Positions 39,024 through 47,859 of a stretch of 64,000 nt of DNA are shown here, one piece after another. Under the pieces are notes generated by a model. It ran no database searches. It was not told the origin of the DNA and saw only the letters and a list, made by a program, of their open reading frames with translations. Source of the stretch: Methanoculleus chikugoensis (GTDB lineage: Archaea > Halobacteriota > Methanomicrobia > Methanomicrobiales > Methanoculleaceae); the NCBI RefSeq assembly GCF_900095385.1, contig NZ_FMID01000017.1, positions 62,001 to 126,000 of the forward strand, read 5' to 3'. The position numbers and the translations under genes were made by a program. The stretch's first letter is position 1; every line of letters starts with the position of its first letter.

Positions 39024-39112
39024 GTTTCCGCCGGATACTCCGGATCTTTTCCACATATTTAAAAATGTTGAATCCCTCTGTATATGGTACTCAATCGGAG
39101 GAATGCAGAGAG

Positions 39113-41137
<2,025 letters not shown>

Positions 41138-41145
41138 TCTCATTC

Positions 41146-41195: not shown

Positions 41196-41292
41196 GGTTA
41201 TACTATTGCACTGTTCCGGCATAGCCGTGTGAGAAGCTGTATGCCGGATTCGGGCGACAAAACACCGCAGTTCCGGATCCAGATCCAGCCAT

Positions 41293-41316
41293 TTTATAAA
41301 GTACATTTGTTTAAAC
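41293..41316 (+). promoter_or_regulatory. Promoter of the surface chelatase cluster
   Basis: TTTATAAA at 41293-41300 lies about 30 nt before ATG 41327, so the transcript has almost no leader. The palindrome GTTTAAAC at 41309-41316 sits between TATA and start, a position where a repressor could act. Confidence 0.5.
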
Positions 41317-41326
41317 TTAAATTATA

Positions 41327-42046
41327 ATGAGTAACATTGTCAACCTCCTCACCGCCGGCGTCTTCGGCGGCACCACCCTTCTGGCGTTGAAGAGCGGGGT
41401 CGGGTGCGGGCTTGCGGGACTGCAGACGCGCGAGACGCTCTTTCTTGCATCCGCGTACGCGATCGCGGCGCTCATCATAGGAGCAATCGCGGGTAGCATC
41501 CCGGTGAACGCAACAGAGCAGATCGTCGGCCTCGGCCTTGCTATGCACCTCATCATCGGGCTCGCGCTCGTCTATTCCGGGATCAAGACAAAGAAAAGAT
41601 GGCTATCCGATCGGAAGGACATATCACGCCGGACGTTTCTCCTGATGTCGCTTCCCTGTCCGGCATGCCTTGCAGCAACATTTCTTTCGTGTCTCTTCTT
41701 CACCGAAACCACCGGGATGAGCGGCATTGTGGCAGGCGCCGTTGCCGGCGGGGTATTTTTTGCAGGAGTTGCTGGAGGAGGAGTGAGCACGAGCTGGATC
41801 ACAACAAAGACCAGCACAAAAAATCCGTCCACCCTGGGTAACGTCATGCTGTTCCTTGGCCTCTTCTACCTGCTCTGCCTCCTCCTCGTCCCGGCTTACC
41901 TGCAGGCGCAGGACGCACCGGCATTCAACGTCACAACGGACCCGAACGGCATGCTCCTTGCGCTTGCCCTGATGGGAATCCTGATCCTGCTCGGGGCGCT
42001 CGCCGACAGGGTCCGGCATGCAGTAACGCACCCGGGAGGGAGATGA
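41327..42046 (+). CDS. DUF2162 family membrane protein (predicted transporter)
   Basis: The 239-residue protein has about six to seven transmembrane helices. Notable phrases are KSGVGCGLAGL, MSLPCPACLAATFLSCLFF with three cysteines, and GVFFAGVAGGGVSTSW. It resembles LysE/cytochrome-biogenesis-like small transporters and fits the methanogen DUF2162 family, whose substrate is unknown. It is first in a cluster with an ExbB-like channel, DUF2149 and a CobN-like chelatase, which suggests metal or corrinoid transport. Its stop overlaps the next ATG. Confidence 0.8.
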   Translation: MSNIVNLLTAGVFGGTTLLALKSGVGCGLAGLQTRETLFLASAYAIAALIIGAIAGSIPVNATEQIVGLGLAMHLIIGLALVYSGIKTKKRWLSDRKDISRRTFLLMSLPCPACLAATFLSCLFFTETTGMSGIVAGAVAGGVFFAGVAGGGVSTSWITTKTSTKNPSTLGNVMLFLGLFYLLCLLLVPAYLQAQDAPAFNVTTDPNGMLLALALMGILILLGALADRVRHAVTHPGGR

Positions 42047-42663
42047 TGGACTTTTCTGCACTGATTATGGAGACCATGTTCACCGTCTCCGGGGCGCTGC
42101 TCTATCCCGTGGTCATCCTGCTCCTTATCTTCGTTGTCTGGGCGCTGGCGGCCATCGGCCAGTTCATATCCGAGTACTCGGGAAGAACGCGCGACCCCCG
42201 GCGACTCAGAAACGGGTGTCTGCAGACGCGGGCGCTTATCGAGGCGCGATCCTGCAGTGAGGCTGCAGAGACACTGGCGGCGGCGGGATCAAATCCGCTC
42301 CTCGAATCGTTCATCGGCGACCTTACAGCGTTCCTCGGTGACGATCGGTTCTTGATCGAATCGGAGAAACTCCTCCAGGACTACGAACTACGTATCGCCG
42401 CTGAGCTGGAACGACTCAAGATCCTGGTGCGGACGGCCCCCATGCTCGGGCTCATGGGAACGCTGATACCCCTCGGCCCCGCACTGATGGGTCTTTCGGC
42501 AGGAAACGTCGAGACACTGGCATCAAATCTGGTCGTCGCGTTCAGCACAACAGTGCTCGGGTTGTTTGCCGGGGGCATCGCCTACGCCATCATGCTGACA
42601 AAACGCCGGTGGTATCTGCAGGACCTAAGCGACATGGAATACGTGGCGAGGATGGTCGCATGA
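42043..42663 (+). CDS. MotA/TolQ/ExbB-type proton channel protein
   Basis: The 206-residue protein has helix 1 at about 17-40, a long cytoplasmic segment, then TAPMLGLMGTLIPLGPALMG and LVVAFSTTVLGLFAGGIAYAIML. This is the ExbB/TolQ signature of a stator that uses the ion gradient to drive a partner. Archaea have no outer membrane, so the partner is probably the large surface protein encoded downstream. The ATGATG start overlaps the DUF2162 stop, and the DUF2149 start overlaps its stop. Confidence 0.88.
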   Translation: MMDFSALIMETMFTVSGALLYPVVILLLIFVVWALAAIGQFISEYSGRTRDPRRLRNGCLQTRALIEARSCSEAAETLAAAGSNPLLESFIGDLTAFLGDDRFLIESEKLLQDYELRIAAELERLKILVRTAPMLGLMGTLIPLGPALMGLSAGNVETLASNLVVAFSTTVLGLFAGGIAYAIMLTKRRWYLQDLSDMEYVARMVA

Positions 42664-43001
42664 GAAGACGCCGCATCATCCTTGACGACGATGACGAAGA
42701 CCCTCTCTCCGGCGTCGCCAACCTCTTTGACGTCGCCATGGTCTTTGCCGTCGCTCTCCTGGTCATGCTCGTCGTCTCCTACAACGTCCCCGAGCTCCTT
42801 GATGACGAATCTGATCTCACGGTGGTGAAAAACCCGGGACAGCCGAACATGCAGATCATCATCAAGGAGGGCAAGACGCTCAAAGTGCTGAACATGACCG
42901 AGGAACTTGCCGGCGGCCAGGGCAGCCGCATGGGCACGGCGTACCGCCTTGAGAGCGGCGAGATTATCTACGTTCCCGACGATGGGGACGAGGATAACTA
43001 A
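42660..43001 (+). CDS. DUF2149 protein, ExbD-like partner
   Basis: The 113-residue protein from ATG 42660 has a basic-acidic cytoplasmic start (MRRRRIILDDDDEDP), one helix at about 26-44 (VAMVFAVALLVMLVVSYNV) and an extracellular beta-rich domain. This is the ExbD/TolR topology, and DUF2149 genes sit beside MotA/TolQ/ExbB genes in methanogens. An Asp at residue 23 lies just before the helix, near where ExbD has its functional Asp. It overlaps the channel gene by 4 bp. Confidence 0.8.
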   Translation: MRRRRIILDDDDEDPLSGVANLFDVAMVFAVALLVMLVVSYNVPELLDDESDLTVVKNPGQPNMQIIIKEGKTLKVLNMTEELAGGQGSRMGTAYRLESGEIIYVPDDGDEDN

Positions 43002-43058
43002 CTCTTTTGTCCAAAAACCGGCCTCTTCCGCCGCCCCGATACGTAACGTATATTAACA

Positions 43059-43074
43059 ATCAAGCTTACTTGAT
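43059..43074. promoter_or_regulatory. Dyad upstream of the CobN-like gene
   Basis: ATCAAG and CTTGAT are exact inverted arms around CTTA in the 142-bp gap before the CobN-like gene. The gap is AT-rich and carries TATA-like CTAAATAAAAG near 43079, so this gene may have its own regulated promoter besides read-through from the cluster. Confidence 0.4.
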
Positions 43075-43143
43075 CTACCTAAATAAAAGTTTAGTAAACG
43101 CCCGGCAGTAGAGAGTGCCGCCGGGAGGAAAAGAGGCCGGATT

Positions 43144-46100
43144 ATGAGAGTTAAACGAAAAAGTCATTTATACAGTCTGTGTGCACTGATCACGATCGCC
43201 CTCCTCCTGATCGTACCCGTGGCGGGTGAAGACGCCGCGGACCCGGAGGAGAGCGGGTCGGCCCTGAACGTAACGGGCGGGATTGACACCCCGGACCCGG
43301 TTGAGACCACACCTGCGCCGCAGGCAACAGGGACGGAAGAGGAGAAAGAAGGACCACAACTGGAACCCTCCGACGCCGGAAACGCCACGCAGACCCCGGT
43401 CCCGACAACAACCGCCGGCAACACATTCCCACTAGAAGAAGACACCATAACCTGCTCCGGTGAAGAGAATGCGACCGGGGAGATGCGAGGAGGTGTCGCG
43501 GAGAACAGGTTCGCAATCGTCACGAACGACAGCCAGAGGCGGACTGCGCTCGCCGGCGTAACCGGGAGCGTCCCGTTAAACGTCTCCCTCTTCTCCGGAG
43601 AAGAGGCACTGCTGCACGACTTCTCCGAAGACCTCTTCATCTTCGCTGCTTCCACCGGCAACGATACCGTTGCGCACATCAACAGCACGCTGAACCCGAA
43701 CGCCACGGTGATCACCTGCCATCTCCCCGAAGGCGTGGCCTTCGGCACCCCTGCGGATGGAGTTCTTCTGCAATACTGGCTCTACGGCGGCGAAGCAAAC
43801 CTCGAACAACTCCTCCTGGCCCTGGACAATCAGTTCTACGGGGCCGGCCACGATCTCGCAGACCCCGTTCCGCCGCCCGGCAGACCGAGAATCGCGTGCG
43901 TCTTCTCCCGCCCATCCGAGGTTACGGGCATGGTGTCAATCTCCAGAGATCCCACAATTCAGTCCGTAATGGATATTTCTGCGTATCTGGGTATGTCAAA
44001 CGAGGATCTCTCCTTCAGTCTCGATGGAAACGACGTCATCCTCCTCTCAAACCTGGATGCACCAGTCGTCGAGGCCATCAAAGGTACCATAAAGGACGCA
44101 CGGGATAACGGGTGCGTCGTCATCTCCTGCGGGCCGCTCGTGCAGAGTTACAACCTGCATACCATCGATCCGTCCGATCCGAACGTGACAACGATCGTCG
44201 AGTACCTGGAGTATCCCTCGGACGTAAACTTCAACAACCTTGCACGATATACCGGTGTCACTTACTGTAATATTACATTAGACGTGGCCCCTCCCCAAAA
44301 ACGGCCCGTGTACGGCATCTACCACCCTGATGCACCCCGGATCTTTGCCACGTCGGTGGAGTATCTGGACTGGTACGCCGCCTCCGGCGGATACGACGCG
44401 GCACGCCCGACCATCGGCATCATCACCGGCGACTATAAGTATATGAGCAGGGATGGTCCGATGATCGATGCCCTGATCCGGTCATTTGAGGGTGAGGGCG
44501 TCAACGTTATCGCGACTACCTACCACTACAACGACCCGGTTCGGATCGGATATTTCCTCGATAACGAAGAGGTACTCATCGACGCGGCCGTGCTCATCTC
44601 AAAGGCCTCCCGGCTTGACTACTCCGACCCTGAACGGGGGATCGAGAATCTTAAGCGCCTCAACGTCCCGGTGCTTAACGCTGTCAGGCTCTTTTACGAT
44701 GTCAACGAAACGGCCTGGAGAGAGAGCCCTCACGGTGTCGGACCGGAGCAGGCATACCAGTTGCTTATGGCCGAACTCGACGGCACCATCGAACCCATCG
44801 TCGTCGCGGGCAAGGATCCTGACATCACCGGCGATATCTACATGCCGTTCGACGACCAGGTTGCATGGCTGACGAAGCGCACTCTCGGGTGGGCGAACCT
44901 GCACCGTACCGGCAACGCAGAGAAGAAGATTGTCATACCCTATTACGGTGAAGAAGCCGGGAAAGCCATGGTCGGTGCGGATGTCGACTACTACCTTGAC
45001 GCGCAGGCCAGCCTTGCCAGCCTCCTTCAAGCAATGCGGGACCGGGGATACGATCTCGGCTCTGAACCGCTCCCCGACCGGGATGCACTCGCCGAACTGA
45101 TGGCTACAAAAGGCTACAACGTCGGGACATGGGCACAGGAGGAACTGAACCGCCGCGTCGAGGCCGGTGACGTGATCCTTATCCCGGAAGGCCAGTACCT
45201 CGCATGGTTCAATGAATTACCGGCTACAAAGCGTCAGGAGATGATCGACATCTGGGGCGAACCCCCGGGCGAGATCATGGTCTATGAAAACGGCGGGACG
45301 CGTTCGCTCGTTATACCGACAATCCGGTTTGGTAATGTTCTTCTGGCGCCTCATCCCATGTGGGGCTGGGACCAGAATACAGATGTGACATACCACGACG
45401 GATCGGTTCCCCCGACGCACCAGTATCTGGCCTTCTACTATTACATGGATCGAGTATACGAGGCCGATGCGATCTTCTCGATCTTCAGCAACATCTGCAT
45501 GATGCCCGGGAAAGAATCGGGGCTCGCAGCCGATGATTGGGGCGCCCTGCTGATGGGCGACATGCCGCACATCCACGTGCTCCCGATGGATGCGGAAGGG
45601 ATCTTCGATCGGCGCCGTGCAAACATGGCGATTGTCGACTTCCTGACCCCAACCATCGTTCCGTCGGGCCTTTACGGCCCGCTCAGCAACCTTGACGATA
45701 CTGTCGCGAACTACCGGACGGTCGTTGACGAGGCGGTAAAAGCCGAGTACAGGTCCGATATAATCGCCACCGTCAGGGACCTTGGCCTCGCCACAGATCT
45801 CGGGGCCGATCTCCAGACACTGGAGAACAACGATGCCGCATTTGACGCCTTTGTTGATGACCTGGGCGAATACTTAACAGAACTAAAGACCACGTTTATG
45901 CCTTACGGCTCTCACACGCTCAGCGAAGTCCCTGCCGGCGATCAGCTCGTCACCATGATAGACGGGATGCTGGGGAGATCGTTCGCCGATCATGTCGCTG
46001 CAGCCGGCAACGACGATGAGACACGCCTGGAACTCCTCACCGAAGTGATCCTCAACGGTGTATCACCGGCAGATGCGCAGGTGATGCACCTTGGCGCCGC

Positions 46101-47859
46101 CCATGCGGATATCACAGGGGATCTTAATCTTGCGCTGGACTACAAGAACCGGATCGCAGGCTGCAACATCGAGATACCGCGCATCCTGGATGCCCTCGAG
46201 GCGAAGTATATTCCCCCGGGTCCGAATGGCGACCCGTTGAGAAACCCCGACGCGCTCCCGACCGGCAGGAACCTCCACACCTTCGATGATCGGATCATTC
46301 CCACAAAAGCCGCCTGGACGGTCGGAAAGAGGCTTGGTGATGACCTGTTTTCGGCGCACATTGCATCGCACGGAACGTATCCCGACAAGGTCGCGTTCCT
46401 GCTCTGGTCGGTTGAGACGTCACGCCACCAGGGAACCATGGAGGCCGAAATACTCTATCTTCTCGGCGTGGAGCCAGTTTGGAACAAATACGGTCGCGTG
46501 GATGATGTGAAACTGATCCCGTCCACAGAGCTCGGCCGCCCCCGTATCGATGTACTTGTCGTCACGTCAGGCACATACCGGGATATGTATGCCGGTAAAT
46601 TACTCCTGATCGATAAAGCGGTGCGACTTGCCGCCGCTGCCGACGACGGCGCCACACCGAACTATGTCCGTGAACATACCGCGGCGATCTACCAGGACCT
46701 CATCAATCGAGGATACGACGCGGAGACCGCAAGGGAACTCGCAGCCTCCCGCATCTTCTGCCCGCCGCCGGGATCGTATACCCCGGGGATACAGACTGCC
46801 ATCGGGGCCACCGACACCTGGAGCAGCACCGAAGGACTCGCCGATCTTTACATCAACCGGATGGGCTACGTCTACGGGAGTACGATCTGGGGAGAGCAAT
46901 ATGCCGACGTCTTCCGTGCAAACCTGGGTGATGTGGATTCCGCAGTATTTTCCAGGACATCCAACCTTTACGGAACACTGGAGCACCCGATGGTTGCGGC
47001 CTACTTCGGAGGGCTGAACATGGCGGTAAAGAGCGTATCCGGAACCTCCCCTGATATGTACATCAATAACCAGCGGGACGCACAGAACCAGAAATTGGAG
47101 ACACTCCAGCGTTTCGTCAGCCGCGATCTCCGTTCTCGATACCTGAATCCCGAATGGATAAAGGGCATGATGGAACAGGGCTTCGACGGAGCCCGCTATA
47201 TGGAGGCTTTCGTAGAGAATATGTGGATCTGGGATGTCACCATGCCGGACCTGATCACGGAGGAGATGTGGGACAGCGTCTACGAGACATACGCCGAGGA
47301 TCAGTATGACCTCGGCATGAAAGAGTTCCTCGATGCGCGCAATCCCTACGCATATCAGTCGATTGCCGCAAGGATGCTGGATGCCGCCAGAAAAGGATAC
47401 TGGAACCCCGATGCCGACGTCCTGCAGCACCTCGCAGAGGAGTTCCAGCAGTCGGTCGAGTTCCACGGGGTGACGTGCTGCCACCACACCTGCGGCAACC
47501 TCCAGCTGGAGGCCTACATCCAGAGCCAGATCCCCGCACCTCAGGCGCCCGATTCCGACAGCAGCGGTAAGCGTCCATCCTCCCGCTCCTCCTCTTCGGC
47601 GCTCCCCACGTTCACACCGATTCCTTCCGGCACGGGAGATCAGGTCACCAACACGACGGATGCATCGGGGATCGGGAAGACCGTCGATCAAATGGCCGGC
47701 GATATGGCGAAGGCCGCACAGGAGGTGAGCGGCCATGTGATGCGGGAGGTACAGGATGCGATGGACAATCCGACCACCAGCACGCCCCTGATTCCCGTCA
47801 TGCTGGTTATCCTGGTCGTCGGCGCAATAGCCGCCGGGTTCTGGCTGAAGCGACGGTGA
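43144..47859 (+). CDS. Surface-anchored CobN-like chelatase large subunit
   Basis: This 1571-residue protein has a signal peptide (about 1-28), a Thr/Pro/Glu-rich linker to about 110, a CobN/BchH-like body (about 240-1460) and a low-complexity Ser/Pro/Thr linker. One C-terminal helix (about 1549-1568) with a KRR end anchors it. In the body FGNVLLAPHPMWGWDQ and, at 1445-1452, CCHHTCGN are CobN-family features. Cytoplasmic CobN inserts cobalt into hydrogenobyrinate diamide with CobST; here the body should lie outside, and no CobS or CobT is present. The ExbB-ExbD-like pair just upstream could replace the ATPase as energy source. Function in metal or tetrapyrrole capture is inference. Confidence 0.85.
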   Translation: MRVKRKSHLYSLCALITIALLLIVPVAGEDAADPEESGSALNVTGGIDTPDPVETTPAPQATGTEEEKEGPQLEPSDAGNATQTPVPTTTAGNTFPLEEDTITCSGEENATGEMRGGVAENRFAIVTNDSQRRTALAGVTGSVPLNVSLFSGEEALLHDFSEDLFIFAASTGNDTVAHINSTLNPNATVITCHLPEGVAFGTPADGVLLQYWLYGGEANLEQLLLALDNQFYGAGHDLADPVPPPGRPRIACVFSRPSEVTGMVSISRDPTIQSVMDISAYLGMSNEDLSFSLDGNDVILLSNLDAPVVEAIKGTIKDARDNGCVVISCGPLVQSYNLHTIDPSDPNVTTIVEYLEYPSDVNFNNLARYTGVTYCNITLDVAPPQKRPVYGIYHPDAPRIFATSVEYLDWYAASGGYDAARPTIGIITGDYKYMSRDGPMIDALIRSFEGEGVNVIATTYHYNDPVRIGYFLDNEEVLIDAAVLISKASRLDYSDPERGIENLKRLNVPVLNAVRLFYDVNETAWRESPHGVGPEQAYQLLMAELDGTIEPIVVAGKDPDITGDIYMPFDDQVAWLTKRTLGWANLHRTGNAEKKIVIPYYGEEAGKAMVGADVDYYLDAQASLASLLQAMRDRGYDLGSEPLPDRDALAELMATKGYNVGTWAQEELNRRVEAGDVILIPEGQYLAWFNELPATKRQEMIDIWGEPPGEIMVYENGGTRSLVIPTIRFGNVLLAPHPMWGWDQNTDVTYHDGSVPPTHQYLAFYYYMDRVYEADAIFSIFSNICMMPGKESGLAADDWGALLMGDMPHIHVLPMDAEGIFDRRRANMAIVDFLTPTIVPSGLYGPLSNLDDTVANYRTVVDEAVKAEYRSDIIATVRDLGLATDLGADLQTLENNDAAFDAFVDDLGEYLTELKTTFMPYGSHTLSEVPAGDQLVTMIDGMLGRSFADHVAAAGNDDETRLELLTEVILNGVSPADAQVMHLGAAHADITGDLNLALDYKNRIAGCNIEIPRILDALEAKYIPPGPNGDPLRNPDALPTGRNLHTFDDRIIPTKAAWTVGKRLGDDLFSAHIASHGTYPDKVAFLLWSVETSRHQGTMEAEILYLLGVEPVWNKYGRVDDVKLIPSTELGRPRIDVLVVTSGTYRDMYAGKLLLIDKAVRLAAAADDGATPNYVREHTAAIYQDLINRGYDAETARELAASRIFCPPPGSYTPGIQTAIGATDTWSSTEGLADLYINRMGYVYGSTIWGEQYADVFRANLGDVDSAVFSRTSNLYGTLEHPMVAAYFGGLNMAVKSVSGTSPDMYINNQRDAQNQKLETLQRFVSRDLRSRYLNPEWIKGMMEQGFDGARYMEAFVENMWIWDVTMPDLITEEMWDSVYETYAEDQYDLGMKEFLDARNPYAYQSIAARMLDAARKGYWNPDADVLQHLAEEFQQSVEFHGVTCCHHTCGNLQLEAYIQSQIPAPQAPDSDSSGKRPSSRSSSSALPTFTPIPSGTGDQVTNTTDASGIGKTVDQMAGDMAKAAQEVSGHVMREVQDAMDNPTTSTPLIPVMLVILVVGAIAAGFWLKRR

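Follow-up and report, generated by a model that had tools for sequence, protein, structure and literature searches.

CobN-family proteins are the large subunits of the cytosolic class I chelatases CobNST and ChlHID, in which they share a common fold, are driven by a ring of AAA+ ATPases and have no ExbB-type partner. A third CobN type, BtuS, is an exported CobN-like protein with a predicted role in metalloporphyrin salvage (credited to Rodionov 2003 in PMC6460266). HmuS, encoded by the hmu operon of Bacteroidota, de-chelates ferrous heme when purified, alone, with a reductant and without ATP; its activity is described as requiring reductant and the membrane fraction, and HmuU/HmuV are drawn as the energizer of an outer-membrane receptor in Bacteroides (PMC12583661). 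The same 2025 study calls the role of the archaeal HmuS homologues unclear and reports that complete hmu operons are lacking in archaea. Here, we describe a four-gene cluster at positions 41327-47859 of a 64,000-nucleotide stretch of Methanoculleus chikugoensis DNA (contig NZ_FMID01000017.1, positions 62,001 to 126,000; the window). It encodes a DUF2162 protein (T), a MotA/ExbB protein (U), a DUF2149 protein (V), and an exported CobN (S).

The four open reading frames (ORFs) follow each other in tight order on the plus strand, with the positions and gene content given by the first-pass annotation of the window, and all score far above the Pfam cut-offs. T (41327..42046; PF09930, 2.4e-49) is a multi-helix membrane protein and putative metal permease. 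U (42043..42663; PF01618, 2.3e-11, 44 bits against a cut-off of 22.9) is a channel subunit of the ExbB/TolQ/MotA family and the single MotA/ExbB match found in the genome. V (42660..43001; PF09919, 4.8e-35) has one transmembrane (TM) segment and an extracytoplasmic domain. S (43144..47859; PF02514, E = 0) is a 1571-residue anchored protein of the CobN/BtuS/HmuS family whose best relative in the PDB is HmuS (9d26, E = 2.2e-141). PDB sequence searches with T, U, or V alone returned nothing useful. The V ORF was listed from a GTG at 42609, but the start is most likely the ATG at 42660, which overlaps the U stop codon as ATGA, because the orthologs start there. V is 89-92% identical to V of Methanoculleus sp. 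UBA303, M. sediminis, and Ca. M. thermohydrogenotrophicum.

In Bacteroides finegoldii, the hmuYRSTUV operon encodes S, a membrane protein, a MotA/ExbB protein, and a DUF2149 protein. S (a CobN-family protein that is exported and anchored at both ends), U, and V of the Bacteroidota HmuSTUV are homologous to the archaeal proteins and are likewise adjacent, and HmuV and archaeal V are 53% identical over 105 columns. The archaeal cluster differs in its T-U-V-S order, in the absence of HmuY and HmuR (neither adjoins it) and of an outer membrane, and in its membrane protein, HmuT not being detectably DUF2162. Because S is nearest to HmuS among solved structures and homologues of S, U, and V occur in the hmu operons of Bacteroides, the cluster is, on sequence grounds, the archaeal counterpart of the BtuS/HmuS module. 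The system is not without precedent: the families of S, U, and V all recur in the Bacteroidota hmu operon, and S itself is a BtuS/HmuS-family protein. The module itself is known; what is new is its archaeal, TonB-free form with a DUF2162 permease and an S that has lost its active-site histidines. BtuS shares the exported CobN-like protein, whereas the archaeal T-U-V partners are undescribed in the cited BtuS literature. The cobN cluster on plasmid pSZ77 of Trichlorobacter lovleyi (PMC3403914) has DUF2162, MotA/ExbB, DUF2149, and CobN in the same T-U-V-S order, but TonB receptors and a separate ExbB-ExbD-TonB set lie alongside, and its S keeps a HIGTHG motif in addition to CCDHTC. Methanosarcina barkeri is said to lack the operon (PMC10846266); Methanosarcina sp. 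2.H.T.1A.6 has T-U-V-S-S, which qualifies such statements, although the mapped genome is not that of M. barkeri.

S aligns with the CobN-Mg_chel model of Pfam over residues 353-1425 (44200..47418; 1047 bits), which covers positions 2-1088 of the 1090 in the model. The N terminus has a strong hydrophobic segment, predicted from hydropathy and sequence to be a signal peptide (43144..43227), and the protein carries a Ser/Thr/Pro-rich linker, 12 N-glycosylation sequons, and a C-terminal TM segment whose hydropathy marks it as a membrane anchor (47788..47847). These features agree with the initial proposal that S is exported and anchored. Both terminal segments are present in 82 of 94 full-length S-family rows by a crude hydropathy cut-off. 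S is the sole exported CobN in its genome. The other CobN, on contig C37, has 1233 residues, neither hydrophobic segment, and 1 sequon; it lies among ABC-transporter genes for a binding protein, a FecCD-type permease, and an ATPase (identities read from sequence) and next to a ChlI-VWA fusion, the AAA+ partner that such proteins usually have. No AAA+/VWA partner was found at the surface CobN locus, as first supposed. The CobN fold and the presence of a ChlI-VWA fusion in the genome would allow S to be a metal-inserting chelatase that works with this cytosolic ring, but the signal peptide, anchor, and sequons of S, the location of the ring gene beside the cytosolic CobN, and the loss of the active-site His make this very improbable.

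Linkage was determined from locus maps of 60 regions and 80 named loci, in which the four families were located with iterated profiles, and was counted for 66 non-redundant archaeal V genes flanked on each side by 8 kb or more of sequence. U adjoins V in all 66 loci, T adjoins in 59, and T, U, and S are all present in 51. S lies upstream or downstream of T-U-V, frequently as tandem copies. A phylum survey of 295 genomes found DUF2149 in 92 and DUF2162 over the cut-off in 80, all of them within the 92 (lists compared by eye). Within Methanoculleus, T, U, V, and S are under purifying selection, with ratios of nonsynonymous to synonymous substitution (dN/dS) of 0.13-0.35. The cluster is not a chance arrangement because its linkage is conserved across families and its four genes are under purifying selection. 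The gene content, the linkage, and the signals for export are firmly established, and the co-occurrence anticipated by the first-pass annotation is found; neither a lack of linkage nor a lack of export, both named there as refuting outcomes, was observed. U-V is also present in Planctomycetota and Poribacteria contigs from metagenome-assembled genomes (MAGs; L161, L165), with S too in L161; by these contigs, the module extends further among bacteria than published work on hmu indicates. A contig assigned to Candidatus Nitrosotalea (L110) has U-V-S nested among Methanophagales sequences, from either a binning error or transfer.

The active site separates the Methanoculleus S from its relatives. 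His538 of HmuS, the second His of the HFG(T/A)HG motif, is conserved across the CobN/ChlH superfamily and essential in HmuS (PMC12583661). HmuS combines HFGTHG with LDH, which contains His1209, and the majority of archaeal S proteins combine HFGTHG with NDD. The window S has FSIFS (45475..45489) and EHPM (46981..46992) at these places, with Phe781 for His538 and Met1283 for His1209, so that neither HFG(T/A)HG nor the bis-His site is present. At the position of the HmuS HGR motif (heme ligands Met79 and His254), every archaeal S differs from HmuS, in a region where the alignment is weak. FSIFS-type S proteins number 11 and form one group at 100 support in a FastTree phylogeny computed with the motif columns left out, to be read with long-branch caution. 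The group includes Methanoculleus, Methanocalculus, Methanofollis, Methanosarcina, a Methanosarcinales MAG, and ANME-1 (anaerobic methanotrophic archaea), and two Methanophagales rows with HLG-ESP fall within it. A sequencing error or frameshift was rejected as the origin of FSIFS, since the 11 sequences from several families share it in this group and the S dN/dS is 0.16-0.21. A second, His-keeping S stands in tandem with the FSIFS-type copy in Methanosarcina 2.H.T.1A.6 (L174), the Methanosarcinales MAG (L164), and ANME-1 GoMg1 (L123).

Clade-specific residue switches cluster near the cavity, and the CCHHTC motif ahead of the anchor (47476..47493), a candidate metal site, is invariant in the archaeal S compared. 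HmuS has SCSGFVC at this place, and C-x4-C is common to both. The replacement of both active-site ligands makes ordinary His-based de-chelation by the window S doubtful, and the same holds for the metal stripping or insertion first ascribed to it. With the catalytic ligands lost, the switches near the cavity, and CCHHTC invariant, the most likely role of the Methanoculleus S is to bind a metal or metal complex and pass it on, and de-chelation by the His mechanism of HmuS is less likely. In six loci (L073, L082, L089, L155, L164, L168), tandem S paralogues carry HFGTHG, HLGTHG, NMGRHG, SVGRHG, or FSIFS motifs, as if they were subunits or substrate variants.

Gene neighborhoods in other genomes point to metals. 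T-U-V-S adjoins CbiM, CbiN, CbiQ, an ABC ATPase, and tetrapyrrole methylases in several genomes of family f10 (ANME-1/Methanophagales and relatives, assigned through matches to named records) and FeoB with an iron-dependent repressor (DtxR) in a Methanoregulaceae genome. The Runella module lies inside a hyp cluster and has a NicO/DsbD_2-like permease in the T slot (both matches just under the cut-off), and Azospirillum has S-U-V near nikR with no T. These CbiMNQ/corrin synthesis, FeoB/DtxR, and hyp/nikR neighbors argue for a role in metal uptake, in keeping with the metal acquisition first proposed, and suggest a single module that serves for Fe, Co, or Ni, the metal differing by lineage. Two CobN-like BtuS proteins of M. 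barkeri rise with Fe/Cys and pyrite as the iron source (PMC10846266). A divergent ArsR-type helix-turn-helix gene stands beside T in five loci of cluster c10, a Methanosarcinaceae group (L054, L059, L079, L080, L081), and is a candidate regulator.

V had been called ExbD-like, which holds for its topology and not for its sequence. It matches ExbD/TolR in its single TM segment, intramembrane Asp, and extracytoplasmic domain; the Asp near the start of the TM helix (42729..42731) is invariant (64/64 sequences), at a position resembling the one that the ion-conducting Asp occupies in ExbD. The published hmu model, in which such a pair powers a TonB-dependent outer-membrane receptor (PMC12583661), and the receptor genes that adjoin in bacteria would make U-V an ExbB/ExbD energizer. 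Family searches found neither ExbD nor TonB_C in the window genome. An outer membrane is not known from this group of archaea. U adjoins V in every archaeal locus counted, and Trichlorobacter has T-U-V-S beside a complete, separate ExbB-ExbD-TonB. The energizer role is thereby excluded for this organism and hardly credible for the pair, and the conserved job of U-V, as read across these genomes, is not the powering of TonB. A U-V pair elsewhere lies downstream of an S-layer/CARDB protein in place of CobN (L051 9819-13684), which suggests that DUF2149/ExbB pairs have other surface clients. In f10 and related genomes (L053, L057, L088, L090, L091), the neighbors of U-V include transporter genes of the BtuF/FecCD type and giant CARDB, beta-helix, or NosD surface proteins.

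We read the cluster, with confidence that reaches about the halfway mark, as a machine for metal acquisition at the external side of the cytoplasmic membrane, an archaeal form of BtuS/HmuS in which a U-V motor acts on S. U and V would assemble into an ion-driven, stator-like complex in which the extracytoplasmic domain of V is the moving part and works on S. For an exported class I chelatase, U-V would then take the place of the AAA+ ring (ChlI/ChlD or CobS/CobT) that serves the cytosolic ones. S would hold a metal complex (a tetrapyrrole or other organic ligand), and the released metal would reach T, the Cys-lined permease, perhaps by way of the membrane-proximal CCHHTC motif. We infer the action of U-V on S from linkage and the lack of ATP outside, and the original suggestion that the pair transmits ion-gradient energy to S stands to that extent. 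Motor-driven action is plausible and is better founded now that a TonB role is excluded for this archaeon. A wider formulation, in which DUF2149/ExbB-type stators replace the AAA+ ring in an ion-motive-force-driven class I chelatase of archaea and bacteria and the derived archaeal branch is a carrier without a catalytic site, is put forward more tentatively and falls somewhat short of an even chance.

Several results weigh against this motor reading. Purified HmuS works alone without ATP, so a motor is not obligatory for heme de-chelation and would have to matter in vivo for turnover, substrate loading, or release. S is not within reach of V in 15 of the 66 loci, and U-V may serve more than S, given the pairs beside S-layer, CARDB, and BtuF/FecCD genes. 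No ExbD domain match was found in 17 V proteins, hhalign gave a probability of 0.1% against one ExbD, and the structure model of V is poor (predicted local distance difference test, pLDDT, of 60). No metal genes were seen beside the cluster in Methanoculleus itself, where the neighbors are silent on metal. The T model matched no solved fold in Foldseek (nothing at E <0.001), and no relation between T and HmuT was detectable.

T offers two further explanations. Its AlphaFold model is all helices (pLDDT 83), and an alignment of 48 sequences has K22, D98, C111, and C114 in all 48, C27 in 46, C122 in 45, and a nearly invariant H74. The Cys set (C27 in GCG; C111-P-x-C114; C122; 41405..41692) is a candidate metal path or redox site. 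As a redox site, it could make T a transmembrane electron or thiol conduit of the CcdA/DsbD kind that reduces S through the PCPxC cysteines and the S Cys motif, the role of U-V being separate. HmuS needs reductant and the membrane fraction (PMC12583661), PCPxC is invariant in T, C-x4-C is shared by S and HmuS, and a FrhB/FdhB-type protein with a YHS domain follows S in four loci; the T model has no fold match to CcdA/DsbD, however, and no such family is among the 25 Pfam families listed for 37 T proteins, which leaves the conduit rather improbable. Homology of T to CcdA/DsbD or NicO was rejected for want of support in Pfam or Foldseek. Alternatively, U-V might energize T or another importer, with S as a surface binding protein that feeds T and undergoes no mechanical action. 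This fits the more frequent adjacency of T than of S to U-V, the loss of catalytic ligands from the window S, and the occurrence of U-V beside binding-protein and FecCD permease genes in some f10 genomes, but in bacteria S-U-V is the more constant core, without T in Azospirillum and with another permease in Runella. We regard it as possible but unlikely and retain motor action on S as the preferred reading. Some f10 (ANME-1-like) DUF2162 proteins have an additional N-terminal TPR-like domain of ~160 residues (L070 9906-11111, L085 6337-7515, L087 11222-12460; Pfam TPR_12/SNAP matches in three members), with U-V adjacent and no S.

A likely promoter of the cluster (41290..41326, plus strand) precedes T in the window. 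Its TATA-like element, TTTATAAA, lies ~27 nt 5' of the T start codon and is conserved ahead of T in Methanoculleus loci. No RNA element, such as a cobalamin riboswitch, was over threshold in a scan of the window. The cluster neighbors in Methanoculleus are a membrane pyrophosphatase, an acetyl-CoA synthetase, and a major-facilitator transporter. A 694-residue open frame on the minus strand (39059-41143) runs antisense to the entire pyrophosphatase gene (39065-41137, plus strand) and probably just reflects the composition of GC-rich coding sequence.

This locus and ~50 similar ones establish that S, U, V, and a permease travel together in methanogens, ANME, and their relatives. Archaea without TonB separate the function of U-V from outer-membrane transport, which makes the role of HmuU/HmuV directly testable in genetically tractable Methanosarcina, and the clade that lacks the active-site His tells which part of the system survives the loss of a catalytic site. 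If the motor reading is true, the cluster would represent a new mode of energy coupling for chelatases and a new class of client for ExbB/MotA motors.

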